Shown here piece after piece: positions 15,222 through 32,090 of a stretch of 64,000 nucleotides of DNA. A model generated the notes under the pieces. It ran no database searches, was not told the origin of the DNA, and was given only the letters and a program-made list of their open reading frames with translations. The first letter of the stretch is position 1. Each line of letters begins with the position of its first letter. Both the position numbers and the translations under genes were made by a program. The DNA comes from an uncultured Alphaproteobacteria bacterium (GTDB lineage Bacteria; Pseudomonadota; Alphaproteobacteria; Rhodobacterales; Rhodobacteraceae): positions 62,001 to 126,000 of the forward strand of contig CACBBC010000001.1 in assembly GCA_902537415.1 (NCBI GenBank), written 5' to 3'.

Positions 15222-16355
15222 TTACAGTATTTTCTTTAACGTTTCAGTAAAACGTTCAAAATCAGTTGAATTATTCCATAAGTGAGGTGTAATTCTTAAA
15301 TTGCCACCTCTCTCAGAAACAAATATTTGGTTTTCTGCCAAAGTTTCAAGAATATTTTTTGGAGCTTTAGAAGGAAGTTTTGCACCTATAAAATGAGGCC
15401 CTCTGTTTTCAGGCCTCGGAATTTGTAACCCCAAATCACTAAGCTTTTTACCAAGATTAAGATTGGAGTTATAGAGAGTATTCTGAATATTGGGTATACC
15501 CCATTTCTGTATTTGACGGAGCGCCGCTAGTACACCGGGAATAAGAGAAAAATTTGATCTTTGTCCCATATCATACCTTATTGCTCCAGGTTCATAATAA
15601 TCCTGGTAATCGACGAGGTTTGCAAAATCCTTACTGTTTTTTCTTGTTATCCAGCCTTCTTCGAGTGGCTCCCCATTATGGAATTTAGGAGAAACATAAA
15701 GAAATCCAGTTGAGTAGGGGCCAAGCATCCACTTATAATTTGCTACAATTGCAAAAGCAGGATCTATTTTACTTAGGTCAATATCAAAAGCGCCTGCCGA
15801 TTGGGTGAGGTCAATAACAAGTTCGGTTTTACATTCCAAGCATTTTGCTTTCACTTTTTCTAAATCTATTAATGATCCATTGGTCCATAATACATTTGCA
15901 GTTGCGCAAACGCTAACCCGTTCATCTAAAGCGTCGATTATATGATCTGTAGCTGCTTCACCATCAGGGACATTTACAGTTTTGATCTCAGCACCTTTTT
16001 GCTTAGCGGTACGACGCCACGGATAGACATTAGATGGAAACTGATCAGATAGAACAAGTATTTTTGATCCTGCTGAAATCTGTAAATTTTTTGCGGCAGT
16101 CTGAACACCATAAGAAGCAGAGGGAATAATAGCTATATTGGTTCCAACTGTATGCATAAGGTTTGAAAATAAATTTCGAGCCTCTTCTATATCATCAAAA
16201 AAATTGCTTATCTTGAGTTTCCATGGATTGGCTTTTAAACGACTTCCGCTATCTATGGCAGTGACAACGCTGTTCAAAAGGGGGGACATGTATGCAGTAT
16301 TTAAATATGCGACGTCTTCAGGAATATCAAAAAGATGTCTTTGGCAAGGGATCAT
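15222..16355 (-). CDS. Class V aminotransferase-fold PLP enzyme
   Basis: A 377-residue PLP-dependent protein of the class V aminotransferase/cysteine desulfurase fold. The Schiff-base lysine is expected in NYKWMLGPYSTGFLYV, and VIDLTQSAGAFDID carries the PLP-binding Asp. An arginine in GGNLRITPHLWN near the C-terminus matches the substrate carboxylate site. The active loop lacks the cysteine expected of IscS/SufS, so a role in FeS assembly is unlikely. It is the last gene of the long minus-strand run and lies 15 bases after the class III aminotransferase. Substrate unknown. Confidence 0.85.
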   Translation of the reverse strand: MIPCQRHLFDIPEDVAYLNTAYMSPLLNSVVTAIDSGSRLKANPWKLKISNFFDDIEEARNLFSNLMHTVGTNIAIIPSASYGVQTAAKNLQISAGSKILVLSDQFPSNVYPWRRTAKQKGAEIKTVNVPDGEAATDHIIDALDERVSVCATANVLWTNGSLIDLEKVKAKCLECKTELVIDLTQSAGAFDIDLSKIDPAFAIVANYKWMLGPYSTGFLYVSPKFHNGEPLEEGWITRKNSKDFANLVDYQDYYEPGAIRYDMGQRSNFSLIPGVLAALRQIQKWGIPNIQNTLYNSNLNLGKKLSDLGLQIPRPENRGPHFIGAKLPSKAPKNILETLAENQIFVSERGGNLRITPHLWNNSTDFERFTETLKKIL

Positions 16356-16370
16356 GTGTTATTGTTTAAA

Positions 16371-17654
16371 CTAGGATATTGCTGCAATGCCCTCAGCCGC
16401 TTTTTTAAATGCGCTATCAGTTTTCTGAAGATCTTCTTCGGTAAGCGCAAGGTGTGTATAAAGTTTAGCATCTGCTTTGAGTATTCCAAGTTCTCTAACT
16501 ATTTGATTAAAAGTTTTTGAATATTCAGCCTTATTTTTCTTTGTATCACGGTAATTAATAACAGGTGTTTCAGAAAAAATTATATCGAAAAGTGTTGGAT
16601 CACCAACAATTTGAAACTCTATATTGTTACTCTTAAGATGTTTTGTAATGCTATCGATTAAAAATTGCCCGTTTTCTCTTATCCTATTATAAGCACCATC
16701 TCTTCTAAGTATCTCCATCGTTTTTAAACCAGCTACTGCTGCCAATGGATTTCCACTAAGGGTACCGATTTGGAAAGTAAACTTTTCTTCTCCAACAATA
16801 TTTTTATCAAAATGATTCATAATTTCTTTTTCACCGGCTATAGCCGCCAAAGGTAAGCCACCTCCAATGATCTTCCCAAGCGTGCATAAATCAGGCACTA
16901 CGCCGTACAGTTCTTGTGCACCACCGTAGGCCAACCTAAAACCAGTTACTATTTCGTCAAAAATCAAAAGTGCACCAATTCTTTTTGTTTCAGCCCTTAG
17001 ATGCTCTAAAAATCCTCTTATTGGCGGAATTATTCTTTGAAGTGGTTCTACAATTACCCCGGCAATTTGATCTGAATACTCATTCATTATTTCCGTAGCG
17101 ACTTGAGGGTCGTTGAATGGTGCGACCAAGATATCATCTCTAACGGCTTCAGGTATGCCCGCTGAATCCGGTACTGCTAATGGAAAATTTACCATTTTGT
17201 TAGGTGCAAGACTCATCAATGAGTCTCCACTCATCCCATGATACCCACCCTCAAACTTGAGGATTTTATTTCTACCTGTATGTGCTCTTGCCAATCGCAT
17301 CGCATACATATCAGCTTCACCACCAGAGCTTACAAATCTTATCTGTTCGGCACATTTCACTGCGTTACAAATTTCTTCAGCTAACTCAACTCCTTTTGAA
17401 TTATTGGTGAAAAAAGTGAGACCTTCACTGAGTTGTGCTCGTATTGCATCTAATACTTCTTCATTTCCATGGCCCAGTATCATTGGCCCTGATCCAATTA
17501 AAAAATCTATATATTCTTTGTTATCTTCGTCCCATACTCGTGAACCTAAACCTCGTTTTAGACTGATATTAGGGTCGAAATTACCAAAACCAGCGCCTGG
17601 AAGTACCTTCTGTGCTCGGCTTTGCCACTCTTTTAGAGAAATATTCTTATTCAT
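16371..17654 (-). CDS. Class III aminotransferase (HemL-like fold)
   Basis: A 427-residue PLP-dependent enzyme of the class III group. LLIFDEIVTGFR carries the PLP-pyridine Asp, and TLGKIIGGGLPLAAIAG the Schiff-base Lys. It resembles glutamate-1-semialdehyde aminomutase, but the N-terminal PGGVNSPVR element of true HemL is replaced by PGAGFGNFDPN. A catabolic omega-transaminase is therefore more likely. In this operon the attractive substrate is beta-alanine or 3-aminoisobutyrate from pyrimidine breakdown. That is inference from position only. Confidence 0.85.
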   Translation of the reverse strand: MNKNISLKEWQSRAQKVLPGAGFGNFDPNISLKRGLGSRVWDEDNKEYIDFLIGSGPMILGHGNEEVLDAIRAQLSEGLTFFTNNSKGVELAEEICNAVKCAEQIRFVSSGGEADMYAMRLARAHTGRNKILKFEGGYHGMSGDSLMSLAPNKMVNFPLAVPDSAGIPEAVRDDILVAPFNDPQVATEIMNEYSDQIAGVIVEPLQRIIPPIRGFLEHLRAETKRIGALLIFDEIVTGFRLAYGGAQELYGVVPDLCTLGKIIGGGLPLAAIAGEKEIMNHFDKNIVGEEKFTFQIGTLSGNPLAAVAGLKTMEILRRDGAYNRIRENGQFLIDSITKHLKSNNIEFQIVGDPTLFDIIFSETPVINYRDTKKNKAEYSKTFNQIVRELGILKADAKLYTHLALTEEDLQKTDSAFKKAAEGIAAIS

Positions 17655-17671
17655 TATGTTCTTCTGTAAAA

Positions 17672-17699
17672 GAAAAGGCGGAGGAATTTCCGCCTTTTC
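17672..17699 (-). terminator. Hairpin between the ABC binding-protein gene and the aminotransferase gene
   Basis: A perfect 11-bp inverted repeat (GAAAAGGCGGA at 17672-17682, TCCGCCTTTTC at 17689-17699) with a six-base loop. On the minus strand it is followed by TCTTTTA, so it can act as an intrinsic or partial terminator for transcripts from the transporter genes. The two downstream aminotransferase genes may thus be expressed at a lower level or from their own promoter. Confidence 0.8.
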
Positions 17700-17723
17700 A
17701 AATTTTAATTTATTTAAGTAACA

Positions 17724-18710
17724 CTAATTCAGCGCTGCGTTTGTAATTTCGTTAGTCCAAGCGCCTGATGGCTTCTTTGTTATTACAGGGTCAGAATCAC
17801 CGGACATTAGCACTTTTACTGTTCTTTCGTAATCTGCAGGATCAAGTGACCCATTAGATCCAGCTGTAAGTTTTGCAATTTCGCCCATCATTCTAACTTG
17901 ATGCTTCTCGGTTTGTACACCCGCATCATCGTTATCTAGAATAATCATCGCGGCTTCTTTCGGATTTGCTTCTGCATACTTCCAACCTTTCATAGATGCT
18001 CGAACAAATCTTACCATTTTATCTTTGAACGCAGCGTCGCTTAGGTTTTTCTCGTGTACATATAACCCATCTTCAAGAGTTGCGGCTCCTTCCGACTGGT
18101 ATTTGAAAACTGTTAGCTGTTCAGGAGAGTAGCCAGCGTCTCTAACAACCCAATACTCATTATAGGACATAGTAGATACACATGCAGCTTGACCCTCTGT
18201 TAAAGGCTCAACACCCCAACCTTGTCTTAATACAGTCACTCCATTGGCACTACCGTCGGTCTTCAAGCCTAGTCGGCTCATCCAACTCAGGAATGGATAT
18301 TCGTTTCCATAGAACCAAACTCCCAACGTTTTTCCCTTAAGATCAGCGGTAGAATTAACGCCCATATCTTTTCTGCAAGTAAGCATCATACCAGAGCTTT
18401 TAAATGGTTGTGCTATGTTTACCAGTGGAAGACCTTTTTCTCTAGCTGCTAGAGCAGAAGGCATCCAGTCAACCATAACATCGGCCCCACCACCAGCCAA
18501 AACTTGTGCTGGAGCAATATCTGGCCCGCCTGGTTTAATTGTAACATCTAGGCCTTCAGCGTCGTAAAAGCCTTTATCTTTTGCTACATAATATCCAGCA
18601 AATTGAGCTTGAGTAACCCATTTTAACTGAATTGTGACCTTGTCAGCAGAAAAAACGGCTGATGCACTTAATATAAAAGCACAGGTCAATACAGATAGAA
18701 TCTTCTTCAT
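17724..18710 (-). CDS. NMT1/THI5-like ABC transporter substrate-binding protein
   Basis: A 328-residue periplasmic binding protein with a clear Sec signal peptide (cleavage near ASAVFSA, residue 21). The mature start KVTIQLKWVTQAQFAGYYVAKDKGFY is typical of NMT1/THI5-like proteins. These bind pyrimidines, hydroxymethylpyrimidine, sulfonates or related ligands. No TPP riboswitch elements are visible upstream, which argues against thiamine-precursor uptake. With the dihydropyrimidinase and amidohydrolase genes in the same run, a pyrimidine, hydantoin or dihydropyrimidine ligand is likely. Confidence 0.9.
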   Translation of the reverse strand: MKKILSVLTCAFILSASAVFSADKVTIQLKWVTQAQFAGYYVAKDKGFYDAEGLDVTIKPGGPDIAPAQVLAGGGADVMVDWMPSALAAREKGLPLVNIAQPFKSSGMMLTCRKDMGVNSTADLKGKTLGVWFYGNEYPFLSWMSRLGLKTDGSANGVTVLRQGWGVEPLTEGQAACVSTMSYNEYWVVRDAGYSPEQLTVFKYQSEGAATLEDGLYVHEKNLSDAAFKDKMVRFVRASMKGWKYAEANPKEAAMIILDNDDAGVQTEKHQVRMMGEIAKLTAGSNGSLDPADYERTVKVLMSGDSDPVITKKPSGAWTNEITNAALN

Positions 18711-18770
18711 TTTTTTCCCTCTTAGTAATCGTTTCTATAATTGTTAATCAAATTCAGTTGATACGCAATG

Positions 18771-19613
18771 TTATTTTTGTTGACTAGGATGCCAAAAAGT
18801 TGTGCGTTTTTCAATTAACGCAATTAAGCCATAAAAAAGGCAGCCAGCAATTGCTGCAACAAAGATTTCTGCCCATACCATGTCCAATGCAAATCGACCA
18901 ACTTCCGAGGATATTCGAAATCCCATTCCCTTAATAGGAGATCCAAAAAACTCAGCAACAATTGCCCCGATTAGTGCAAGGGTTGAGCATATTTTTAAGC
19001 CATTAAAAATAAAGGGCAATGCAGATGGCAAACGAAGTTTAATTAGTGTTTGAGTATAGGACGCGCTGTATGTTCTCATAAGGTCTTGTCGGCTAGGATC
19101 TACAAGCTCTAATCCTTGCACGCTATTTACAAGCATTGGAAAATAAACCATAACTACAACGATAGCGCACTTTGATTGCCAATCGAACCCGAACCACATT
19201 ACAAAAATTGGGGCCATTCCCACAATTGGTAGCGCCGAGATAAAATTACCTAAAGGTAATAGACCTCGTTTAAGAAAATTAAACTTATCAATCGCAATAG
19301 CTGTAAGAAAAGCTGCGCCACAACCCAATATGTAACCAGACAGAGCACCTTTTACCAAGGTCTGTACAAAATCAATCCACAGAATGTCTAAAGAACGAGA
19401 AAACTTTAGAGCTATTGCCGATGGAGCAGGTAACAAAATAGGATTTATTTGTAATCCGATGACAGCTAACTCCCACATTAAGAGAATAACAATCCCGAAT
19501 AGAGATGGGACTATAAATCTAGGCAAATTAGCGTCCTTGTGGTTGGATATTTTTATATTAATCCACCATCCCCCAAGCCAAATAATGAAAAAAAGAATTA
19601 GAAAAGTATTCAT
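18771..19613 (-). CDS. ABC transporter permease (NMT1/taurine-type), second
   Basis: A 280-residue inner-membrane permease of the BPD_transp_1 type with about six hydrophobic segments. The EAA-like cytoplasmic loop reads RTYSASYTQTLIKLRLPSALPFIFNGLK. Its ATG overlaps the end of the first permease gene by four bases. It partners the ATPase at 20493 and the binding protein at 17724. Confidence 0.92.
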   Translation of the reverse strand: MNTFLILFFIIWLGGWWINIKISNHKDANLPRFIVPSLFGIVILLMWELAVIGLQINPILLPAPSAIALKFSRSLDILWIDFVQTLVKGALSGYILGCGAAFLTAIAIDKFNFLKRGLLPLGNFISALPIVGMAPIFVMWFGFDWQSKCAIVVVMVYFPMLVNSVQGLELVDPSRQDLMRTYSASYTQTLIKLRLPSALPFIFNGLKICSTLALIGAIVAEFFGSPIKGMGFRISSEVGRFALDMVWAEIFVAAIAGCLFYGLIALIEKRTTFWHPSQQK

Positions 19614-20503
19614 CTAATTATAGCCATTCTTTTAAGCGTGATTTTTTGTAAGAAATCTATTGTAAAAACTAAAAGTGCGGCAAGAAAAGCGGCAGCAAAC
19701 AAAGCGCTCCAAATCATAATTGTCTGACCGTAATAAGTGCCTGCTAGCATTCTCGCTCCCAAACCGGCAATGGCACCCGAAGGAAGTTCTCCAACTATGG
19801 CCCCAACCAGCGAAGCAGCAACCCCGACCTTTAATGAAGCAAAAAGAAAGGGTAGGGAAGAAGGAAACCTCAAATACCATAGGATTTCCCTTGAGGATGC
19901 AGACCATGTTTTCATTTGATCTAGCTGAATCTGGTCAGGTGATCTCAAACCTTTCACCATTCCTACAACAACTGGAAAAAAAGAGAGATACATAGAAATA
20001 ATTGCTTTTGGTAACAAACCTGTTACCCCAACCGAATTCATCACAACTATTATCATTGGTGCTATAGCAAGAATGGGTATAGTTTGACTTGCAATTACCC
20101 ATGGCATAACACTAAGGTCCATTGCCTTATTATGTACTATGCCTAAAGCTAGTAAAATTCCAAGGAGTGTTCCCAAGAAAAATCCAGCTAAGGTTGCCTG
20201 CAAAGTAATCCATCCATGGTAAACAAGAGAGCGCTTTGAACTGATTTTTTTAAAAAAAGTTGTATTTACCATTTCATTAATTATCTGATGTGGGGTAGGG
20301 AGCTTTGGTTTTTTTAAACTCCAGCACTTTAGTATATGCTCACTGGCTGTAAGGTTTTTAAATTGTCTTGAAACCTTATCAGAGTTCATTGGAACCGCGA
20401 CAAGATACCAAAATAATCCGATTAGGATTACAATTGTAGAAACGGGAATAAATTTATTTGCAAGATAAGATGTTTTCATTTCTATCAATCTTTCAAAAAA
20501 CAT
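19610..20503 (-). CDS. ABC transporter permease (NMT1/taurine-type), first
   Basis: A 297-residue permease of the same family as the next gene. The EAA loop reads [28 protein letters not shown]. The N-terminal region holds one extra hydrophobic segment and a long hydrophilic stretch before the core domain. The start overlaps the ATPase stop by 11 bases; an alternative ATG lies eight codons further in. The presence of two different permeases implies a heterodimer, whereas many NMT1-type systems have only one. Confidence 0.92.
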
Positions 20504-21266
20504 CTTCGCTTTGACCAGCCTTTAAGCCTTCTCTTACTCTTTGTGCAATTTTTATAAACTCCCTACTATCTCTTATATTTAAATCACGTTTTTTTGGTAG
20601 CGTACTTTCTATTATGTCAGTAATTCTTCCTGGTCTCGGAGACATAACAACAATTTTTGTTGATAAGAAAACTGCTTCTGGAATTGAATGCGTCACAAAA
20701 CATATAGTTTTTCTTGTTCTAGCCCATAAATTTAAAAGTTCTCCGTTCAATCTATCTCTAACAATTTCGTCTAGAGCTCCGAAAGGTTCATCCATTAATA
20801 GGATGTTGGCGTCAAATGCCAAAGCTCTCGCAATCGACGCCCTTTGTTGCATTCCTCCAGACAACTGCCAAGGGAATTTTTTTTCAAACCCGTTTAATTC
20901 TACTAAGTCTATTACTTTTCGTGTTCGGTCTTCTTTCTCACTGGTGGAGTATCCCATGATTTCCAAGGGTAGTTTAATGTTTCCACTCACCGTTCTCCAC
21001 GGATATAAACCTGCTGCCTGAAAAACATACCCATATTGTCTAGCTTTTCTGGCTTCATCAGGTGTCATATTATTTACAGTCACCCTGCCTTCCGTAGGGG
21101 TCTCAAGTGCTGCAATTACTCTCAGAAGAGTTGTTTTACCACATCCAGATGGTCCAATAAAGGATACAAAATCTCCTTCATTAACTTCCATAGATACATT
21201 CTTCAAAGCATTTACAGGACCGTCATTTGTTTCAAAAGTTAGGTTAACATCAGATACGCTTATCAT
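20493..21266 (-). CDS. ABC transporter ATP-binding protein (NMT1/taurine-type)
   Basis: A 257-residue ATPase with Walker [10 protein letters not shown] near residue 38, Q-loop [11 protein letters not shown], signature [15 protein letters not shown], Walker [13 protein letters not shown] and H-loop CFVTHS. It belongs to the SsuB/TauB/ThiZ-like group. It lies 21 bases downstream of the dihydropyrimidinase gene on the same strand and overlaps the first permease gene. Confidence 0.94.
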
Positions 21267-21287
21267 AAGTTTTCCTTCGTGTAGATT

Positions 21288-22748
21288 TTATACTCCTGCT
21301 GGTATATTTAAAGGATCACGTTCTATTTTTCTTGGTGTGTTTAGAGCCTTCCACTTTGATACTGCACTATGCAATGCTGGGAAAGCAGGTCTTGGGACAA
21401 ATCTACCCCTTCCTGGTTGTGGACTAGAGTTCTTGCCCCATGCCCATATTACATCTCCTCTAGATAATGTGTATCTTGGTTGTGCTGTGACTTTGAAACC
21501 TTCGAAAACATTGTAGTCTAAAATTGATTTGTGGGTACTTGTCGAAATTGTTTTAGAAATCTTTGGGTCCCAAACAACAATATCTGCATCTGCGCCTTCT
21601 AAAATTGCTCCTTTTTTTGGATAAATGTTTAGTATCTTAGCAATATTACTTGAAGTAATTGCGACAAACTCCTGTCGAGTTAAACGCCCCGTTTCTACGC
21701 CTTCTGTCCAAAGAACGGATAACCTTTCCTCAAGCCCGTTGCTACCATTCGGAATCTTAGTGAAGTCATTTACTCCCATTCTTTTTTGTTCCGTCGAAAA
21801 CGCGGCATGGTCTGTAGCGACAACTTGTAGAGATCCTGACTGAAGACCAGCCCATAACCCTTCCTGATGCGATTTGTCTCTAAAGGGAGGCGACATGACC
21901 CGTCTTGCGGCATGCTCCCAATCTTTATTAAAGTATTCGCTTTCATCTAGCGTTAGAAATTGAATAAGGGGTTCACCAAAAACTCTCATACCTTTTTGCC
22001 TAGCTCTTCTAATAGCCTCATGAGCCTGCTCACAAGATACATGAACAACATATAGCGGTACTCCTGCGGCATCGGCTATCATTATCGCTCTATTAGCTGC
22101 CTCACCCTCTACCTCCGGAGGTCTTGAGTAAGCGTGCCCCTCAGGACCAGTCACTCCTTCTTGAAGGTATTTTTGTTGAAGCTCCGCAACAATATCACCA
22201 TTTTCGGCGTGAACCATAGGCAGAGCGCCGATAGCTGCACATCTTTTAAAGGATGCAAACATTTCATCATCTTCAATCATTAGGGCTCCTTTGTAAGCCA
22301 TAAAATGTTTGAATGAATTTACTCCCATCTCAACTACCTTTGGCATATCATCAAAAATCTGTTCAGACCAACCTGTGACTGCCATATGATAACCGATGTC
22401 AGAACAAATTTGAGGCTCTGACTTTCTATGCCACTCCTTAACTGCATTTACCAAACTGCCATCCTCACCTGGAAGACAGAAGTCTACTAACATTGTTGTT
22501 CCACCGACTGCGGCTGCCCAGGTGCCTGTTTCAAAAGTCTCGGCAGCGGTGGTCCCCATGAATGGCATCTCAAGGTGCGTATGCGGGTCTATTCCGCCGG
22601 GGATCACATAAGCGCCTTCGGCGTCAATGGCCTCATCCCCCTTTAGATTTTCCCCAATCTGCTTAATTGTTTCATTTTCTATTAATACATCAGCTTTCCA
22701 CTCTCGATCAGCTGTTACAATGGTTCCACCCTTTATTACTTTAGTCAT
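21288..22748 (-). CDS. Dihydropyrimidinase / D-hydantoinase
   Basis: A 486-residue amidohydrolase that opens dihydrouracil, dihydrothymine or hydantoin rings to N-carbamoyl amino acids. Metal-site landmarks are GGIDPHTHLEMP (HxH), the carbamylated Lys in HFMAYKGALMI, MVHAENGD, YVVHVS and VVATDHAAFS with the catalytic Asp. Substrate-site PNGSNGLEERLSVL is typical of dihydropyrimidinases. GGGAGG lies just before the ATG. The next gene upstream encodes the amidohydrolase that would act on its product, giving the second and third steps of reductive pyrimidine catabolism. Confidence 0.94.
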   Translation of the reverse strand: MTKVIKGGTIVTADREWKADVLIENETIKQIGENLKGDEAIDAEGAYVIPGGIDPHTHLEMPFMGTTAAETFETGTWAAAVGGTTMLVDFCLPGEDGSLVNAVKEWHRKSEPQICSDIGYHMAVTGWSEQIFDDMPKVVEMGVNSFKHFMAYKGALMIEDDEMFASFKRCAAIGALPMVHAENGDIVAELQQKYLQEGVTGPEGHAYSRPPEVEGEAANRAIMIADAAGVPLYVVHVSCEQAHEAIRRARQKGMRVFGEPLIQFLTLDESEYFNKDWEHAARRVMSPPFRDKSHQEGLWAGLQSGSLQVVATDHAAFSTEQKRMGVNDFTKIPNGSNGLEERLSVLWTEGVETGRLTRQEFVAITSSNIAKILNIYPKKGAILEGADADIVVWDPKISKTISTSTHKSILDYNVFEGFKVTAQPRYTLSRGDVIWAWGKNSSPQPGRGRFVPRPAFPALHSAVSKWKALNTPRKIERDPLNIPAGV

Positions 22749-22761
22749 TTTACCCTCCCAA

Positions 22762-24009
22762 TTAAACTATTTCAGCAGCTTCTAGTACTGCATGCAATAA
22801 AACATCGGCACCTGCTGAAGCCCACTTTTCAGATATCTCTTCTGCTTCATTGTGACTCAAACCATCAACGCAAGGGCACATAATCATCGCCGTTGGCGCT
22901 ACTTTATTTATCCAACACGCGTCATGCCCCGCTCCCGATATAATATTTTTATGTGAATACCCTAATCTTTCAGCGGCTCTTCTAACTTTGTCTACACATC
23001 CTTCATCAAAGGTCACAGGGTCAAAATGCCCAACCTTTTCAAATTCCACAGTCAATCCCAAATCAGAAGCAATTTTTTTTGCTCCCTCATACAAGCGTTT
23101 TTCCATATCATCTTGGACATCAAATGATGGAGATCTAAAATCTATAGTAAACACAACTTTCCCAGGTATTATGTTTCTACTATTAGGAAACACATCGCAC
23201 TGCCCTATCCCACCAACTGCTGATGGCTGGTGACTCATAGCGATCTCTTGAACTAGCTCTGTAATTTTAGCCATACCTAGACCGGCATTTTTACGCATCG
23301 GCATGGGTGTTGATCCCGTATGGCTTTCCCGACCATTAAGAGTTACTTGTATCCAATTAAGCCCTTGTCCATGGGTCACAACGCCAATATCTTTATTTTC
23401 AGCCTCTAATATTGGTCCTTGCTCAATGTGGAGTTCAAAAAAAGCATGCATTTTTCGTGACCCTACTTCTTCGTCACCAATCCATCCGATGCGCTTGATT
23501 TCTTCTCCAAACGTTTTTCCTGCTGCATCCCTTCTATCATAAGCCCATTGGAGTTCATGTACTCCTGCAAAAACTCCCGATGCCATCATTGGAGGAGCAA
23601 AGCGAGTCCCTTCTTCATTTGTAAAATTTACGACTACAATTGGGTGCTTTGTTTTTATATCAAGCTCATTGAGAGTTCTTATTATTTCCAATCCACCCAG
23701 AACTCCTAAAACTCCATCATACTTACCGCCAGTTGGCTGCGTATCAAGATGGCTTCCAACGTAAACAGGTAAAGCATTTGGGTCTGTTCCTTCACGTCTA
23801 GCAAACATTGTTCCCATTTTGTCAACACCCATTTCCAAATTTTCTTTATCACACCACTTTTGGAACAATTCTCGTCCTTCGGCGTCTTCGTCTGTGAGTG
23901 TTTGTCTGTTGTTTCCACCTGCGATACCGGGACCTATTTTTGCCATCTCCATTAGGGAGTCCCAAAGACGAGATGAGTTAATTTTTAAATTAGCTGCTGG
24001 TGTTGACAT
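22762..24009 (-). CDS. M20-family N-carbamoyl amino acid amidohydrolase (beta-ureidopropionase type)
   Basis: A 415-residue zinc hydrolase of the hydantoinase/carbamoylase group. Motifs are GSHLDTQPTGGKYDGVLGVL, NFTNEEGTRFAPPM, FELHIEQGPILE and SGAGHDA, carrying the dimetal ligands and the catalytic Glu. The likely reaction is N-carbamoyl-beta-alanine to beta-alanine, CO2 and ammonia. Allantoate and L-carbamoyl amino acids are alternative substrates of the family. GAGGATCG precedes the ATG. It lies 13 bases before the dihydropyrimidinase gene. Confidence 0.92.
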   Translation of the reverse strand: MSTPAANLKINSSRLWDSLMEMAKIGPGIAGGNNRQTLTDEDAEGRELFQKWCDKENLEMGVDKMGTMFARREGTDPNALPVYVGSHLDTQPTGGKYDGVLGVLGGLEIIRTLNELDIKTKHPIVVVNFTNEEGTRFAPPMMASGVFAGVHELQWAYDRRDAAGKTFGEEIKRIGWIGDEEVGSRKMHAFFELHIEQGPILEAENKDIGVVTHGQGLNWIQVTLNGRESHTGSTPMPMRKNAGLGMAKITELVQEIAMSHQPSAVGGIGQCDVFPNSRNIIPGKVVFTIDFRSPSFDVQDDMEKRLYEGAKKIASDLGLTVEFEKVGHFDPVTFDEGCVDKVRRAAERLGYSHKNIISGAGHDACWINKVAPTAMIMCPCVDGLSHNEAEEISEKWASAGADVLLHAVLEAAEIV

Positions 24010-24028
24010 TCGATCCTCTTAACAAATT

Positions 24029-24940
24029 TTATATCCTCGCTTTTGTATTATCACTAATTAGCACTAATAATGCAAAGGCAATTATAAAGCCTCCAAAAAT
24101 TATGTTTGTATTTGGAAAGCTAGAGTTAATAATTATCTCGCCTAATGCAACCCAAAAAGGAACAGCATAGGTGTAGGCCATTACTTTTGAAGCGCTTATT
24201 CTTTTCGCTGCAAACTGGATTAAGAAAAAAGTAAATGCTGTCGCAATTGTAGCCAAGTAAATTATAGTTGTCCAAATCAATGGAGATAGGTTAGTCCAAT
24301 TTGTTTCTACCACATCATTGGTAAAAATTAAAATAAGTAGTAGGAATCCAGCACTCAAAGTTCCTAAGGTTTGCGATGCTGCATTCTCCCCTTTGTTGAG
24401 AACTGGGATTAAAATAGCGTATAAAGCATGGCCAACACACCCCCAAAAAAAGAGTAGTTCACCATAGCCTATTCTAAATGTTAAAAGGTTTTCTAGATTG
24501 CCTTCAAAAATTACCCAAATTGCTCCCATTGCGCCAAGAGAAATCGCCAGGAACGCCTTGACTGTCACTTTTTTCTTTAAAAAATATTCAAAAAAAAGTG
24601 CAATAAAAGGGGTAAGCGTGAAAACTACAGCCAGTGATAGAGAAGAAGCTGTTTTTAGTGCTTCGAACATTAAAACAAAATAGATAACTATGCTTGATCC
24701 TAGAATAAGAAATCGCCATGGTTTTTTGAAATCATCTTTCTTTAGGTTTTTTGAAACAAATAATAATGTTCCCATTACACTTGCCCCTATCAAAAACCTT
24801 GCTGCTGTTATAGCTCCTGGTTCTATATCATTTGCAACCATTGCTCCTAAAATATAAGACACTGATACACATAAGGAGAAAAGGAGCATTGCTCCGTGTC
24901 CCCAAACCTCTGATGTCTCTACTGATATTTTTTTTATCAA
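24029..24940 (-). CDS. DMT superfamily transporter (EamA domains)
   Basis: A 303-residue inner-membrane protein with about ten hydrophobic segments and two EamA repeats. The first has AVVFTLTPFIALFFEYFLKKK, and the second contains RISASKVMAYTYAVPFWVAL. It lies between the F420 genes and the pyrimidine genes on the same strand, 19 bases before the amidohydrolase. Export of an end product such as beta-alanine, or uptake of a base, is conceivable but unproven. Confidence 0.9.
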   Translation of the reverse strand: MIKKISVETSEVWGHGAMLLFSLCVSVSYILGAMVANDIEPGAITAARFLIGASVMGTLLFVSKNLKKDDFKKPWRFLILGSSIVIYFVLMFEALKTASSLSLAVVFTLTPFIALFFEYFLKKKVTVKAFLAISLGAMGAIWVIFEGNLENLLTFRIGYGELLFFWGCVGHALYAILIPVLNKGENAASQTLGTLSAGFLLLILIFTNDVVETNWTNLSPLIWTTIIYLATIATAFTFFLIQFAAKRISASKVMAYTYAVPFWVALGEIIINSSFPNTNIIFGGFIIAFALLVLISDNTKARI

Positions 24941-25038
24941 GAGCTAATTTTCCTAAAAGATATCCTGAGCTTTATTTGTTATGCAATTTTTTAAAGCTGA
25001 GAATGGAAGAAAGTCTTTTTTACAATATCTGAGTCATC

Positions 25039-26040
25039 TTATGAAAAAGCTGGTATAACATTTTCGCCGTATTCTGCGATAATTCTTTCCTCGTCTCCAC
25101 TATCCAGATAAATATTGAATTGGGTTACTCCGAGATCTTTCAACGTTTTTAGTTTTTTTACATGTTGATCAGCGGTTCCCAAAACACAAAACTCTTCAAC
25201 TATTTCATCTGTGATAAACTCTAAATAGGGATTGTCGCTCTGGCCATGCTTAGAGTAATCATAGCCGCGGCGATCTTTAATGTAGTCCGTAAGGCTGTTG
25301 GGAATGTCTTTATTATCTTCACCATACTTTTCAACTATATCAGCTACGTGATTTCCAACCATTGCTGGGAACCACTTTACTTTTTCAATACTTTCCGCTC
25401 TGTCTCCAAAGTAAGCAGGTGCGGCCACCATTACCTTGTAGTCTGACATATCACGTCCGTGTTCTTCTCCCGCCTTTACCGCTTGATCTCTGAGCCACTT
25501 GCAAACGGTTGGAGAAGCAATTTGAAGCACCAAACCATCTCCAACTTTTCCTGCAGACGTAAGAGCCTTTGGGCCGTATGCAGCTACCCAGACCGGTAAA
25601 TCATATCCTTCAGCCCATGGGAATTGAATTGGGTTTGGAACATCACCATACTGAACTTCATCCCCCTTCACCATTGCCTTTACTTTTAAAATAAATTCCT
25701 CCATTCGTGCTAGGTTAGAAGGCTTCTTTCCCATTACGCGAACAGCGCTATCGCCTCTTCCAACACCGATATCAAAACGTCCATTCGATTGTAAAGCAAG
25801 TGAGCCAAACATTGATGCCGCTAAAGACCAGTCTCTAGTGTTGGGGTTTGTTACACACGGTCCGAACCTCATTTTTTTTGTGTGTTCCATACACATAGCC
25901 ATTTGAGCAAAGCTTTCTCTCCAAAGTATGTGGCTATCATAGAACCAGCAATAGGTGAAGCCAGCGCTTTCTGCCAATCTTACCAGTGCTTTTGCGCGAT
26001 CTGGTTGAACAAACCCTTTGAAACAAATTGCAAATTCCAT
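25039..26040 (-). CDS. LLM-class oxidoreductase, probably F420-dependent
   Basis: A 333-residue TIM-barrel protein of the bacterial luciferase-like superfamily, close in style to methylenetetrahydromethanopterin reductase and, from memory, to the CPS_4043-like group. Visible elements are WFYDSHILW near residue 32, MRFGPCVTNPNTRDW, GRFDIGVGRGDSAVR and LPVWVAAYGPKAL. F420 rather than FMN is inferred because an F420 reductase and two F420 biosynthesis genes lie directly upstream. A strong AAGGAGG precedes the ATG. The RutA-type FMN pyrimidine oxygenases are in the same superfamily, so a role on pyrimidines has structural precedent. The true substrate is unknown. Confidence 0.88.
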   Translation of the reverse strand: MEFAICFKGFVQPDRAKALVRLAESAGFTYCWFYDSHILWRESFAQMAMCMEHTKKMRFGPCVTNPNTRDWSLAASMFGSLALQSNGRFDIGVGRGDSAVRVMGKKPSNLARMEEFILKVKAMVKGDEVQYGDVPNPIQFPWAEGYDLPVWVAAYGPKALTSAGKVGDGLVLQIASPTVCKWLRDQAVKAGEEHGRDMSDYKVMVAAPAYFGDRAESIEKVKWFPAMVGNHVADIVEKYGEDNKDIPNSLTDYIKDRRGYDYSKHGQSDNPYLEFITDEIVEEFCVLGTADQHVKKLKTLKDLGVTQFNIYLDSGDEERIIAEYGENVIPAFS

Positions 26041-26055
26041 TTCTTCCTCCTTATT

Positions 26056-26724
26056 TTATTCCTCTGGTGGCCAAATTTTTATTCCAGCATGTGAAAAGGG
26101 CACCGCTTTGGACATGTTTATTCTTATTAATATAGGCGTTAGAGCCTCTAAACATCTTGCTGAAGTTGCATCACCAGCATTGTAAGCTTGGACTTCTAAA
26201 TTTTTCAACAGTTCTATAGTTTCTAATCGAGCATCCAAATTATTTCCGCATACCAAGATATCACAATTAATTTTCTTCTCTAAGTGATTTAGTGTATTTG
26301 CAGAAACATTATGAAGAGTGCCAACTACTGGTATATCAGGCCCTAATATAGCTTGGGCTGCTTCTGTAGCTGAGCCTTCAGGGGGCATAGCTACTTTTCT
26401 AGGGTTTCCGTCTTCTAACGGAACTACTATGTCAACAAGTATCTTATCGGCTAGCATGCCTTTGATTTCAGAAAGCGTATTGTTGTGACCTGTCCAAGGT
26501 ACCGAAAATACCACAAACTTGTCTGTGAATGCTACTGCTTCGCTATTCGAGAGCCCAGTTATCGATCCCATGATGCTTGGATTTTGTGATGATAAACTAT
26601 CTGCAACTTCGATAGCTCGGGATTTATCGCGAGATCCCAAAGCGACTTCAAAACCTGCCTTAGCAAATCTAAGAGCAAGGCCTTTCCCTTGAGGTCCAGT
26701 TCCTCCAATAATTGATAACTTCAT
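26056..26724 (-). CDS. npdG: NADPH:F420 oxidoreductase
   Basis: A 222-residue Rossmann protein. The N-terminal NADP-binding motif is [20 protein letters not shown], followed by GSRDKSRA, whose Ser-Arg suits NADP phosphate. FSVPWTGHN and the [12 protein letters not shown]-like segment are typical of F420-dependent NADP reductases. The reaction is NADPH plus F420 to F420H2, or the reverse. It overlaps cofE by four bases and precedes the LLM oxidoreductase by 15 bases, so it probably supplies or recycles F420H2 for that enzyme. Confidence 0.9.
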
Positions 26725-27500
26725 CTAAACATATCCTCATTTTGTTTACGCAGAATGTCATTTGCACAGCCATGCTTGCCACTCCAGCTAAGTCCTCTCA
26801 ATAAAATAGCAGGACATTTCCCTGCTTTGCTCATAAGAAGCCCTGAAGATGCAGCTATTTCATCACAAAAAGCTGGTTCTGTCACGTATAATTGATTTCC
26901 CCAAGCATCGCTAGTTCCCTGCTTTTTTTTTGTTGCGGGTAGTCCTGACACACCAATAGCGACATTGACCTGTCCAATTCTCCATGGTCTTCCAAAGGTA
27001 TCGCTCATAACTATCCCCAAGTTCTCCAAATTAAAGTAATTTTTAAGTTTTTTTCTTAAAACCTGAACACTAAGATCAGGATTTTTTGGGACGGTAATCA
27101 CTGTTTCCTGACATTCTATATTAGACTCATCAACTCCTGCATTAGCGCAGATAAATCCAAGTTTATGCTGGCAGATGAGAGTTCCTTCATTTTGTTCCTC
27201 TCTTTTAAAGGAGCGAATAATATTGTTACTTTCTTGCAATACGACTTCGATCTTTCTTGGGTCCTTGTTAAGGCTTTTCGCGAGTTCGATTGCTTTTCCC
27301 GAGGGAGAAATTTCTTTTAATTTTATTATGCATCCCTCAGCTTTTGAAAATATTTTGTGTGCTATACAAATAACGTCAAATTCTTTGAGACACATAGAAG
27401 ATTTGTTTAGAGCAGAAATTAGGATGCCACTAATGTCGTCACCTATTTCGATGTCAGGAATATTCGGAATAATATTTAAATTTAAAGTTGAATTTGACAT
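26721..27500 (-). CDS. cofE: Coenzyme F420-0:L-glutamate ligase
   Basis: A 259-residue CofE protein that adds glutamates to F420-0 using GTP. Visible parts are [18 protein letters not shown] at the N-terminus, [30 protein letters not shown] in the middle and [16 protein letters not shown] near the C-terminus. The length matches single-domain CofE rather than the two-domain actinobacterial FbiB. The 95 bases before it contain a small dyad (27540-27555) and no gene. No cofC or cofG/cofH (fbiC) is in the window. Confidence 0.93.
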
Positions 27501-27595
27501 TTTCTCTAATAGCTACTCTAAATTGCAATTATGCAAGTTACAGATCCAAATCTGTTATTAACCTTTTCTAAAAAGTTCTAAAGTTTTTTTGAAAA

Positions 27596-28537
27596 TCAAT
27601 CAATAGGTTGGTTAATAATAAACTTAGCTAGTCTTTTCTTGTCTGCAAGAGATGTCATCAGGGTATTGGTAAATATAGGTTTCTGATTTAGCGAGACAAA
27701 TTGTTTCTCCAGTCCTCTATCGGACCTATCGAGAATGAATGATTTGCAAATATCCTTGTATATCTGCATACAAGAAAAAGAATTTGGCTTGAAACCTAAT
27801 TGTTTAAGCATTTTTGTTGCAGGCCCTTTTACAGCCTTTCCTTGGATCAACGGACTTATTGCTATCACCTTCTTATTATTTTTTTGAATGATCGATTTAA
27901 ACCCAGGTATTTCAAGTATTGGTTTTATGCTTACTAAAGGATTTGAGGGAGCAATAATTATGAGTTCAGCGTTAAAAAGTGCTTTTTTTGCCTCTTTGGT
28001 AATTTTGGCTGATTTAATTCCGGTGTATTTAAGTTTTATAATTTTCGGTGAACACCGTTTTTTGACAAAATATTCCTGAAATGATATCCAACCTGTCTTA
28101 GTTTGCACCTCTGTTCTTATCTTGTCGTCAGTCGGTAAGATTATATCTGCCGTTATCCCAAATTTTTTAGCGATCTCGTTCGCGATAATTGTCGGACGGT
28201 GATCTTTTAATAGTCTAAGCTGTCTGTAAATATGAAGACCAAAGTCGAGGTCACCTAAAGACATCCAGGTTTCTTCGCCTAATTTATTTAACATTGAGAG
28301 CGTTTTATAAGTGTCATTCTTTACTCCCCATCCTTGCTTACGGTTCACCATTCCTGAAAGTGTATACGTTAGGGTATCTATATCTGGAGAAACTCTTAGC
28401 CCATGGAACTCATCGTCATCTGCAATGTTACCAATGATAGCGAGATTTATATTTTTTATGGAATGCAGTCCCTCTGCTAATTTTGCACCGCCTACACCTC
28501 CTGCTATGAGAACGATATTTTTGATAGATCTTTTCAT
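27596..28537 (-). CDS. cofD: 2-phospho-L-lactate transferase (F420 biosynthesis)
   Basis: A 313-residue CofD protein, which joins the activated lactyl (or related) phosphate to the deazaflavin Fo. Family motifs are LIAGGVGGAKLAEGL at residues 10-24, GLRVSPDIDTLTYTLSG, WMSLGDLDFGLHIYRQLRLL, APSNPLVSI and SPLIQGKAVKGPATKML. The pattern separates it from YvcK, which lacks the WMSLGDLD-like element. It is the first gene of the long minus-strand run and is divergent from the TPR gene at 28699. Confidence 0.94.
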   Translation of the reverse strand: MKRSIKNIVLIAGGVGGAKLAEGLHSIKNINLAIIGNIADDDEFHGLRVSPDIDTLTYTLSGMVNRKQGWGVKNDTYKTLSMLNKLGEETWMSLGDLDFGLHIYRQLRLLKDHRPTIIANEIAKKFGITADIILPTDDKIRTEVQTKTGWISFQEYFVKKRCSPKIIKLKYTGIKSAKITKEAKKALFNAELIIIAPSNPLVSIKPILEIPGFKSIIQKNNKKVIAISPLIQGKAVKGPATKMLKQLGFKPNSFSCMQIYKDICKSFILDRSDRGLEKQFVSLNQKPIFTNTLMTSLADKKRLAKFIINQPID

Positions 28538-30330: not shown

Positions 30331-31512
30331 ATGGTAAATTTTAAAACACAAGTAACAATTATAGGTGGTGGTCCATCGGGCCTATTATTATCCCAGAAGC
30401 TTATGAATGAGGGTATAGACACCATCATTTTGGAAAAACACACTAAAAGCCATGTATTATCAAGGATAAGAGCTGGTGTTTTGGAGAGTGGGACCGTAGA
30501 AATATTGAAGCAAGCTGGTGTAGGTGAAAGAATAGATACTGATGGGTTTGTTCATGAAGGTACTTATCTTTCATCAGAAAATAAAGGTTTCAGAGTTTCT
30601 TTTTCACAGACCGTGGGTAAGAATGTTACAATTTTTGGACAAACTGAAGTAACAAAAGATTTATACCAAAAGCAGGAGGAGAGAGAAGCTAAAATCTTTT
30701 TCCAGGTAAAAAACGTAAATATAATTGACCCAAAATGTTCAAAGACGGAGGTAATATTCGAAGATGAAATTGGGAAAGAAATTAAAATTGTGTCTGACTT
30801 TGTTGTAGGCTGTGATGGTTTTCATGGCGTTAGCAGGCAGCGAATCCCTCTAAACCAAAGAAAAGAGTATGAAAGAATATATCCATTCGGCTGGTTAGGT
30901 ATTTTGTCTGAAACCCCTCCAGTCAGTGATGAGTTGATTTATGCCAACACTAGTGATGGATTTGCCTTATGCTCCATGAGGAATAATAATCTTTCAAGAT
31001 ACTATCTTCAGTGTGATGTGAATACTAAAGCAGAGGACTATTCGGACGATTATTTTTGGAAGGAATTAATTAAACGACTACCCGAGAATTCAAAGGATAA
31101 TTTAAGGACTGGCCCATCAATTGAGAAATCTATTGCTCCGCTGAGGAGTTTCGTGGTCGAGCCGCTTCAATACGGCAATCTTTTTCTTGTTGGAGACGCT
31201 GCTCACATTGTGCCTCCAACTGGAGCTAAGGGTTTGAACCTAGCAGTGTCAGATGTGCATTATTTATCAGAGGGCCTTACAGCCTTTTATAGAGGAGAGG
31301 GTGATAAGAAATTATTTAACTACTCTAAAACGGCTTTGAATAGAATATGGAAAGCGGTGAGGTTTAGTTGGTGGATGACTACTTTGATGCACGAGTTTCC
31401 TGAGACTAAAGAATTCGATAGGAAAATAAAAATAAGTGAATTAGAATATTTGTCTCATTCAAATTTTGCACAAGCGCATTTTGCCGAAAACTATGTAGGC
31501 ATACCATTATGA
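30331..31512 (+). CDS. pobA: 4-hydroxybenzoate 3-monooxygenase
   Basis: A 393-residue FAD monooxygenase converting 4-hydroxybenzoate to protocatechuate with NADPH and oxygen. Motifs are IIGGGPSGLLL (residues 9-19), SRIRAGVLE, the DG motif VVGCDGFHG, YPFGWLGIL, ELIYANTSDGFALCSMR with the PobA substrate-site Tyr, Ser and Arg, and GDAAHIVPPTGAKGLNLA. It matches PobA over its full length. There is no ribosome site between the upstream terminator and the ATG, which suggests unusual control. It overlaps the next deaminase gene by four bases. No protocatechuate genes are in the window. Confidence 0.93.
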   Translation: MVNFKTQVTIIGGGPSGLLLSQKLMNEGIDTIILEKHTKSHVLSRIRAGVLESGTVEILKQAGVGERIDTDGFVHEGTYLSSENKGFRVSFSQTVGKNVTIFGQTEVTKDLYQKQEEREAKIFFQVKNVNIIDPKCSKTEVIFEDEIGKEIKIVSDFVVGCDGFHGVSRQRIPLNQRKEYERIYPFGWLGILSETPPVSDELIYANTSDGFALCSMRNNNLSRYYLQCDVNTKAEDYSDDYFWKELIKRLPENSKDNLRTGPSIEKSIAPLRSFVVEPLQYGNLFLVGDAAHIVPPTGAKGLNLAVSDVHYLSEGLTAFYRGEGDKKLFNYSKTALNRIWKAVRFSWWMTTLMHEFPETKEFDRKIKISELEYLSHSNFAQAHFAENYVGIPL

Positions 31513-32090
31513 AAAATTTCATAGAAAGAGCTCTGAGGGTAATCGAGGAAGAAATAATTCCAGAAACAAAAAAAGGTGTTGCTAGAGGTAATAAAGTTTT
31601 TGGAGGCGCTATTCTAACTAAAAGTGACTATGCAACCATGACTATTGGAGTTAATCAAGAAACTGAAAACCCGCTCTTTCATGGTGAAATATCTACGTTA
31701 AACAAATTTTTTGCCGAAAACAAAAATAGGTCCACAGGAGATCTAATATTTTTGTCAACACATGAACCTTGCCCAATGTGTTTATCAGCTATTACTTGGG
31801 CCGGGTTTAATACTATTTACTATTTTTTTAATTACCAAGATACAAAAAAGGCTTTTAAAATAGCTCATGATTTAGACATTCTGTCGGAAGTATTTGGAAG
31901 GTCGGATGGAGCGTATAGTAAAGAAAATTATTTTTGGAAATGTTATGCAATAAAAGAGCTGATCAATATGCTAGAGCCAGCAAGTAGAGATAATTTATTG
32001 AAAATGTCAGAGCGTATATCATCAACATATGAGAGTTTATCGGAAGAGTACCAAAATAAGAAAAATGACAATAGTATTCCGCTCAGCTAG
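31509..32090 (+). CDS. Cytidine/deoxycytidylate deaminase-fold zinc protein
   Basis: A 193-residue protein of the nucleoside deaminase superfamily. Zinc ligands and the catalytic Glu are seen as HGE (near residue 58) and STHEPCPMC (near residue 87). The fold is followed by an unusual C-terminal extension of about 60 residues with no recognised motif. Its ATG overlaps the pobA stop codon, so the two are translated together. The pairing with an aromatic hydroxylase is unexplained; it may act on a small amine or a purine-like base rather than a nucleoside. Confidence 0.85.
   Translation: MKNFIERALRVIEEEIIPETKKGVARGNKVFGGAILTKSDYATMTIGVNQETENPLFHGEISTLNKFFAENKNRSTGDLIFLSTHEPCPMCLSAITWAGFNTIYYFFNYQDTKKAFKIAHDLDILSEVFGRSDGAYSKENYFWKCYAIKELINMLEPASRDNLLKMSERISSTYESLSEEYQNKKNDNSIPLS

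Follow-up and report, generated by a model that had tools for sequence, protein, structure and literature searches.

An operon that joins cofactor F420 genes to pyrimidine hydrolases in an alphaproteobacterium may encode an F420H2-dependent dihydropyrimidine dehydrogenase

Which enzyme carries out the first step of pyrimidine breakdown in an operon that encodes the hydrolases of the reductive pathway beside genes for cofactor F420? The question is raised by a run of genes at positions 15222-28537 of a 64,000-nucleotide window, by which we mean the whole stretch of DNA that was analysed (G000:C1:62001-126000), from an uncultured alphaproteobacterium whose assembly (G000) measures 1.61 Mb and is 65% complete. 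A first-pass annotation had listed the genes of this run on a single strand, with short gaps or overlaps, and had suggested that a luciferase-like monooxygenase (LLM) protein among them fills the missing first step. The gene list is borne out by open reading frames (ORFs) and by NCBIfam and Pfam matches; every gene lies on the minus strand, with gaps of -11 to +98 bases between neighbours. The suggestion about the LLM protein gains good support from comparative genomics, as the same hydrolase and importer genes are found behind preT-preA in related genomes. We propose that these genes form an operon for reductive pyrimidine catabolism, and that its first enzyme would be the LLM protein, a TIGR03842 family member acting as an F420H2-dependent dihydropyrimidine dehydrogenase that is not homologous to PreTA or DPYD. 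We place the probability of this reading at roughly 0.83.

The run opens with genes of F420 metabolism: cofD, for the 2-phospho-L-lactate transferase of F420 synthesis (27596..28537; TIGR01819, 263 bits, cut-off 257); cofE, for F420-0:L-glutamate ligase (26721..27500; TIGR01916, 226 bits, cut-off 181); and npdG, for NADPH:F420 oxidoreductase (26056..26724; TIGR01915, 172 bits, cut-off 150). The LLM gene follows at 25039..26040. Further along are a carbamoylase gene (22762..24009; TIGR01879 and NF006769, 688 bits), whose product is a probable N-carbamoyl-beta-alanine amidohydrolase (beta-ureidopropionase), and a dihydropyrimidinase gene (21288..22748; TIGR02033, 591 bits, cut-off 393). These two hydrolase genes are adjacent, as expected of a Pyd cluster, with specificity assigned by homology. 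The N-carbamoyl-beta-alanine amidohydrolase 8c46 (675 bits) is among the three best solved relatives of the carbamoylase, and the two that score higher are both named N-carbamoyl-L-amino-acid hydrolase. In the route that we envision, an ABC importer would bring the pyrimidine into the cell, and NpdG would reduce F420 with NADPH, making F420H2 for the LLM enzyme. This enzyme would hand a hydride to C6 of uracil or thymine, yielding dihydrouracil or dihydrothymine. Dihydropyrimidinase would then open the ring, the carbamoylase would split off CO2 and ammonia to leave beta-alanine or beta-aminoisobutyrate, from which an aminotransferase would remove the amino group. We infer the reaction, the position of hydride transfer, the uracil and thymine substrates and the ligand of the importer from sequence comparison.

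Such a route requires the cofactor, and G000 encodes the means to make it. The genes cofG, cofH and cofC form one minus-strand operon (G000:C1:45904-48999, or L135:5905-9000) that lies 13 kb before the start of the window and about 41 kb from cofD-cofE-npdG on the same contig. Together with cofD and cofE inside the window, they complete the F420 synthesis set. The idea that cofG, cofH and cofC had been lost from the window's clade was rejected on these grounds. A sister locus (L025) holds cofG, cofH, cofD, cofC, cofE, npdG and the LLM gene together. In that single-cell genome, cofH (G290:C2:64006-64713) is broken by a TAA stop, which may be an assembly error or a real loss.

The LLM protein itself looks like an F420 enzyme. 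It aligns with positions 1-329 of the 329 in TIGR03842 (504 bits, cut-off 295), a hypothetical equivalog family that we take to have been assigned to F420 by the TIGRFAMs authors. Its sole Pfam match is PF00296, a family with two members in G000, this protein included; it thus lacks the dihydroorotate-dehydrogenase-type FMN domain of PreTA and DPYD. The nearest solved relatives by sequence are F420-dependent methylenetetrahydromethanopterin reductases (Mer). A search with the predicted fold (model pLDDT 86) gave Mer chains as its top eight matches, with TM scores by query of 0.80-0.83; the first 18 of the best 50 matches listed are F420 enzymes, and bacterial luciferase comes 19th. The protein does not belong to Mer, however, scoring 116 bits against TIGR03555 where the cut-off is 349. 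In Mer, Glu6 is catalytic, and Asp96 touches the pyrimidine ring of the pterin in a ternary model (PMC11094777). The equivalents of Asp96 and of the cis-peptide residue Val62, Asp97 and Val63, are kept in 40 of 40 aligned LLM relatives, whereas the position of Glu6 is held by Cys in 25 and by Thr in 15, which makes a role as a tetrahydropterin reductase unlikely. Lys8, His37, Trp40, Arg95, Asp97, Asn230 and His231 are invariant in all 40. A further Mer residue of that paper, Gln178, did not match residue 178 of our alignment and was not used. In sum, the protein looks like an F420 reductase for a substrate other than that of Mer, and we infer that this substrate is a pyrimidine.

The operon position of the LLM gene points to the first step. 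Among six PreA loci that we fetched, three come from genomes of the window's family with no LLM match (L105-L107) and three from genomes that also carry LLM (L104, L108 and L113). L104-L108 share the order preT-preA-TetR-carbamoylase-dihydropyrimidinase-ATPase-permease-permease-binding protein, and the last six of these genes are 56-83% identical to those of the window and stand in the identical order. In L113 the order is preT-preA-TetR-carbamoylase-dihydropyrimidinase, and the DNA fetched there does not include this importer. Across all six loci, the PreA-linked copies are 70-77% identical to the window's carbamoylase and 64-83% identical to its dihydropyrimidinase. With two PreA-linked copies the latter shares 82-83% identity, against 67-68% with LLM-linked copies of Pseudovibrio and 49-50% with those of Marinomonas. 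Ahead of the shared hydrolase and importer genes, cofDE-npdG-LLM occupies the place of preT-preA. A tree of 38 dihydropyrimidinases, from which near-duplicate and low-identity rows were left out, shows the six PreA-linked rows interleaved with LLM-linked ones, with five label changes that are all forced by well-supported branches; the PreA labels are about as scattered as shuffled labels. The carbamoylase tree is weakly supported, with two changes forced, and was not used as evidence. A looser, second case of exchange between PreTA and LLM comes from operons of the beta/gamma type. Burkholderia has TetR-carbamoylase-preT-preA-NCS1-dihydropyrimidinase; Marinomonas, Vibrio xiamenensis and genome G508 have dihydropyrimidinase-NCS1-carbamoylase-TetR, divergent from a cof-npdG-LLM operon. 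The Burkholderia and Marinomonas dihydropyrimidinases are 62% identical.

The first-pass annotation had tied its idea to a neighbourhood conserved in relatives, and such a neighbourhood exists. Of 175 related loci that lie in named genomes, our survey used the 80 best, picked by similarity to the window; in 12 of these 80 (L013-L024) the LLM protein is 97-100% identical to the window's, and L010 and L073 are duplicates of one locus. In 73 of the 80 loci, fewer than 200 bases separate the end of npdG from the LLM gene that follows, and some F420 gene is present in 75. A carbamoylase or dihydropyrimidinase gene is present in 44 of the 80; among the loci whose flanks exceed 9 kb on each side, of which there are also 44, the count is 31. 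Other recurring genes are those for RutR-like TetR regulators (39 loci), NCS1 symporters (14), omega-aminotransferases (7), transhydrogenase (6) and cytosine deaminase (2), and the arrangement is found in both alpha- and gammaproteobacteria. At four loci (L033, L038, L050 and L073) the LLM gene adjoins carbamoylase, dihydropyrimidinase and ABC genes, and the DNA fetched includes no F420 gene; a search of three of the genomes concerned (G296, G300 and G326) found cofD elsewhere in each. It is therefore the LLM gene that links the F420 genes to the hydrolases.

Particular loci fill in this picture. On plasmids of Leisingera aquaemixtae and L. caerulea, genes for an NCS1 symporter, hydA, a zinc hydrolase (the carbamoylase), an aminotransferase (742 bits to the omega-aminotransferase model NF052567), PntB and PntA are divergent from cofG-H-D-C-E, npdG, LLM and a RutR-like TetR gene. 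These plasmids appear to carry nearly the whole pathway, together with a transhydrogenase, PntAB, that could provide NpdG with NADPH; this fits a flow of electrons towards the pyrimidine. The Vibrio xiamenensis cluster includes a semialdehyde dehydrogenase (TIGR01722, scanned as a fragment) and an omega-type aminotransferase. Paracoccus denitrificans (L055) has LLM with F420 genes, carbamoylase, dihydropyrimidinase and a nucleobase symporter; the LLM locus is plasmid-borne in Paracoccus, as it is in Leisingera. A Streptomyces plasmid carries a dihydropyrimidinase gene directly before an LLM gene of 46% identity. Genomes drawn by taxonomy gave four other LLM carriers (G508, G288, G196 and G258). 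G508 has dihydropyrimidinase, symporter, carbamoylase, TetR, cof operon and LLM together, and G288 has LLM-carbamoylase-dihydropyrimidinase-ABC with cofD on another contig. The alphaproteobacterial genome G196 (L011, L012 and L114) has four TIGR03842 matches, two of them over the cut-off; it carries an npdG-LLM-LLM tandem, and tandem dihydropyrimidinases on another contig. A locus titled Nocardioides marinus (L047) has F420 and LLM genes in the Leisingera arrangement, in a genome that carries PreA. The assembly is probably mislabelled or contaminated, and we dropped it as an actinobacterial case.

Does the usual dehydrogenase occur elsewhere in these genomes? PreA was sought with model NF006183 in 53 LLM genomes (50 locus genomes plus G000, G258 and G288) and then in 30 others; searches for dihydropyrimidinase, RutA and cofD cover the set of 53. 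Because G288 and G326 gave identical coordinates they count as one, reducing 83 genomes to 82 distinct and 53 to 52. PreA is present in 13 of the 53 and 4 of the 30, that is, in 17 of 82 distinct genomes. It was not found in 66 of 83 (65 of 82 distinct), among them isolates of Pseudovibrio, Cohaesibacter, Paracoccus denitrificans, Roseibium, Marinomonas, Marinobacterium and Vibrio. A PreTA-type enzyme elsewhere in the genome, or a rutA gene, had been named in the first-pass annotation as the things to look for. The one PF01180 protein of G000 is a quinone-type PyrD on another contig; as the assembly is 65% complete, the absence of PreTA rests on relatives and not on G000 alone. RutA has no match in G000, and a match over the cut-off in one of the 53 genomes. 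By contrast, dihydropyrimidinase is present in 51 of the 53 and cofD has a match in every one (49 over the cut-off), the two lying within 20 kb of each other in 30. In 21 genomes a single dihydropyrimidinase gene lies less than 20 kb from cofD and PreA was not found. A Pseudovibrio strain is one host with a single dihydropyrimidinase in which the search gave no PreA. In all 13 PreA carriers of this set, a dihydropyrimidinase gene lies at most 6.1 kb from PreA, and 12 of these 13 have a second dihydropyrimidinase. A sample of 289 genomes of the class has PreA in 48, dihydropyrimidinase in 82 and LLM in 4. The LLM gene is uncommon and scattered in its distribution: 4 of the 289 genomes of the class have it and 2 of 398 from the phylum, counts that include the window's own genome. 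Among class genomes without LLM, PreA accompanies dihydropyrimidinase in 43 of 47 at a threshold of at least 575 bits, in 43 of 54 at 564 bits and in 45 of 79 with no threshold, both thresholds having been chosen afterwards.

Several observations weigh against the proposal that the LLM protein is the pyrimidine dehydrogenase. Of the 65 genomes in which PreA was not found, many are incomplete assemblies from single cells or metagenomes. LLM and PreA occur together in 17 genomes (by record title, Shimia, Leisingera, Ruegeria, Epibacterium, Limimaricola, Thalassovita, Tritonibacter and the one titled Nocardioides marinus). Four class genomes (G057, G178, G274 and G285) have a dihydropyrimidinase that scores 575 bits or more, and lack both PreA and LLM; dihydropyrimidinase, then, does not always imply a dehydrogenase. 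G258 (L009), which is 98% complete, carries cofGHDCE-npdG-LLM with no dihydropyrimidinase match and has two RutA-like proteins under the cut-off; it may use its LLM protein otherwise, or its dihydropyrimidinase may have been lost in assembly. No pyrimidine marker was found in 17 of the 80 loci within the DNA fetched, 8 of these with full 10-kb flanks. The two TetR proteins scanned score 182-198 bits to RutR, below its cut-off of 368 bits, and a scan of the window for RutR-type operators gave four matches, at up to three mismatches, where 3.3 are expected by chance. The Burkholderia carbamoylase is nearer the window's (53% identity) than the Marinomonas one, so the exchange in the beta/gamma-type operons would be one by function and not gene by gene. 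Finally, predicted alphaproteobacterial F420 producers also encode Fgd (PMC8498797), and F420 may therefore have other uses in these bacteria.

Other explanations of the locus must account for the same linkage. Dihydropyrimidinases also open hydantoins, and many solved relatives of the window's dihydropyrimidinase are named D-hydantoinase. The LLM enzyme could thus use F420H2 on another heterocycle that feeds the same hydrolases, such as a hydantoin, a modified base or a xenobiotic pyrimidine, in place of plain uracil. The four class genomes with dihydropyrimidinase but neither PreA nor LLM are in line with this idea, as is a putative F420-dependent LLM protein near HyuA in a uric acid pathway, proposed to act on yanthine (PMC12507026). 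We nevertheless regard it as unlikely, given that relatives keep the same hydrolase and importer genes behind preT-preA, that the carbamoylase is close to N-carbamoyl-beta-alanine amidohydrolase, and that the recurring neighbours include the RutR-like regulators, NCS1 symporters, omega-aminotransferases and cytosine deaminases counted above. It is more doubtful still that the LLM protein serves a later step, such as the reduction of malonate semialdehyde, while an unrecognised dehydrogenase elsewhere reduces uracil. The pathway does have a branch with a malonic semialdehyde reductase, PydE (PMC7332683), and our search for other dehydrogenases covered the PreA and RutA families only. However, it is PreTA that usually goes missing where LLM is present, the block of F420 and LLM genes holds the place of preTA before the carbamoylase, and the Vibrio xiamenensis cluster already has its semialdehyde dehydrogenase and omega-type aminotransferase.

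Could the LLM protein instead be an FMN-dependent enzyme, whose F420 neighbours reflect shared transfer and not cofactor use? RutA, which acts on uracil, is an LLM protein, and a RutA-like oxygenase would be one form of this explanation; the LLM superfamily includes both FMN and F420 enzymes (PMC6279831). Yet RutA (TIGR03612) is absent among the 17 families that the LLM protein matches, two FMN or monooxygenase models score 25-29 bits against cut-offs above 400, and Mer is the nearest solved relative. Moreover, the cofD match in all 53 genomes holds even where cofD lies on a contig apart from the LLM-hydrolase locus, as in G288, and we consider an FMN enzyme very improbable. Hardly credible, in our judgement, is a chance or passive neighbourhood in which F420 and pyrimidine genes travel together without a functional link. 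The patchy distribution of LLM and its presence on Leisingera and Paracoccus plasmids would suit such a neighbourhood, but the linkage recurs with two hydrolase lineages, two transporter sets and differing gene orders, and LLM stays with the hydrolases even where the DNA fetched has no F420 gene (L033, L038, L050 and L073).

The remaining genes of the run encode transporters and aminotransferases. A DMT/EamA transporter gene (24029..24940; PF00892) lies between the LLM and carbamoylase genes. Beyond the dihydropyrimidinase, ORFs encode an ABC transporter ATPase (20493..21266; 72-77% identical to that of five of the six PreA-linked loci) and two permeases (19610..20503 and 18771..19613), which have equivalents in place in the same proportion of those loci. 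The NMT1/THI5-type substrate-binding protein (17724..18710; PF09084) has as its nearest solved structure the aminopyrimidine-binding 3ix1 (E 4e-17), and by this homology the importer probably takes a pyrimidine. A class III aminotransferase (16371..17654; PF00202) is possibly a beta-alanine/beta-aminoisobutyrate aminotransferase; relatives of 60-62% identity come after the LLM gene in L082 and L083. A class V aminotransferase-like protein (15222..16355; PF00266) ends the run. A terminator-like hairpin at 17672-17699, from a scan whose number of sites is no higher than in shuffles, lies between the binding-protein gene and the two aminotransferase genes, which may form a separate unit. Promoter and terminator scans of the window both gave site numbers at chance level. 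In L013, L015 and L022 (about 14.7-18.5 kb) and L017 (5.4-9.2 kb), the four ABC genes are 58-71% identical to those at window positions 17724-21266, against 97-99% identity to the window for the dihydropyrimidinase and class III aminotransferase on either side of them. This is a cassette exchange within an otherwise syntenic operon. Outside the run, at 30331-32090, a 4-hydroxybenzoate 3-monooxygenase gene (TIGR02360) shares 4 bases with a 193-aa ORF that on visual inspection resembles a CMP/dCMP-type deaminase and has no NCBIfam match at 1e-40.

To our knowledge there is no biochemistry on this LLM protein, and a literature search, to which subscription papers were mostly out of reach, found no published description of an F420-dependent route of pyrimidine reduction. 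PreT-PreA, DPYD and PydA resemble the proposed enzyme in reaction, pathway position and operon position. They belong to the dihydroorotate-dehydrogenase family and bear FMN, FAD and iron-sulfur clusters (PMC7332683), in contrast to the LLM barrel with its predicted F420 and no known metal site. PydAc of Clostridium chromiireducens, which is ferredoxin-dependent, likewise has a changed electron donor for this step, but it is a PydA homologue with iron-sulfur clusters (PMC7332683). The nearest published ideas, as far as the available text goes, are two. A putative F420-dependent yanthine reductase of Chloroflexota is a PF00296 protein proposed by its neighbourhood, in a cluster with HyuA, to reduce a ring; by its description it belongs to a uric acid pathway in another phylum, with no case for pyrimidines or Proteobacteria put forward (PMC12507026). 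SSGG-03002/NpsU, from the synthesis of uridyl peptide antibiotics (mureidomycins), is a putative F420/FMN oxidoreductase that reduces C5-C6 of a uracil moiety according to genetics and NMR. It is set apart by its biosynthetic role, with its cofactor unproven and its in vitro assay having failed (PMC10714638).

A 2021 review treats the reason why Proteobacteria make F420 as an unanswered question, and notes that Paracoccus denitrificans has only trace F420, suggesting a minor or niche role (PMC8498797). We think it likely that, in proteobacteria from the sea in many cases, a non-homologous F420H2-dependent dehydrogenase has on repeated occasions taken over from the iron-sulfur enzyme PreTA, bringing its own cofactor genes, and that pyrimidine catabolism is the main reason for their F420. 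As speculation, the selective gain could be a saving of iron or the avoidance of oxygen-sensitive clusters; the radical-SAM enzymes CofG and CofH also contain iron-sulfur clusters, but they are needed only for cofactor synthesis. Oxidation of F420H2 raises absorbance at 420 nm, a simple assay for the proposed enzyme, and the LLM gene of P. denitrificans, with its F420 and pyrimidine genes, makes the role of F420 in Proteobacteria directly testable. If our proposal is correct, reductive growth of P. denitrificans on pyrimidines would need F420, which pyrimidines would perhaps induce. TIGR03842 would gain a substrate, and the classic pathway, whose human version governs the breakdown of 5-fluorouracil, would gain a second enzyme class. 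For these bacteria, F420 would have a long-sought role.

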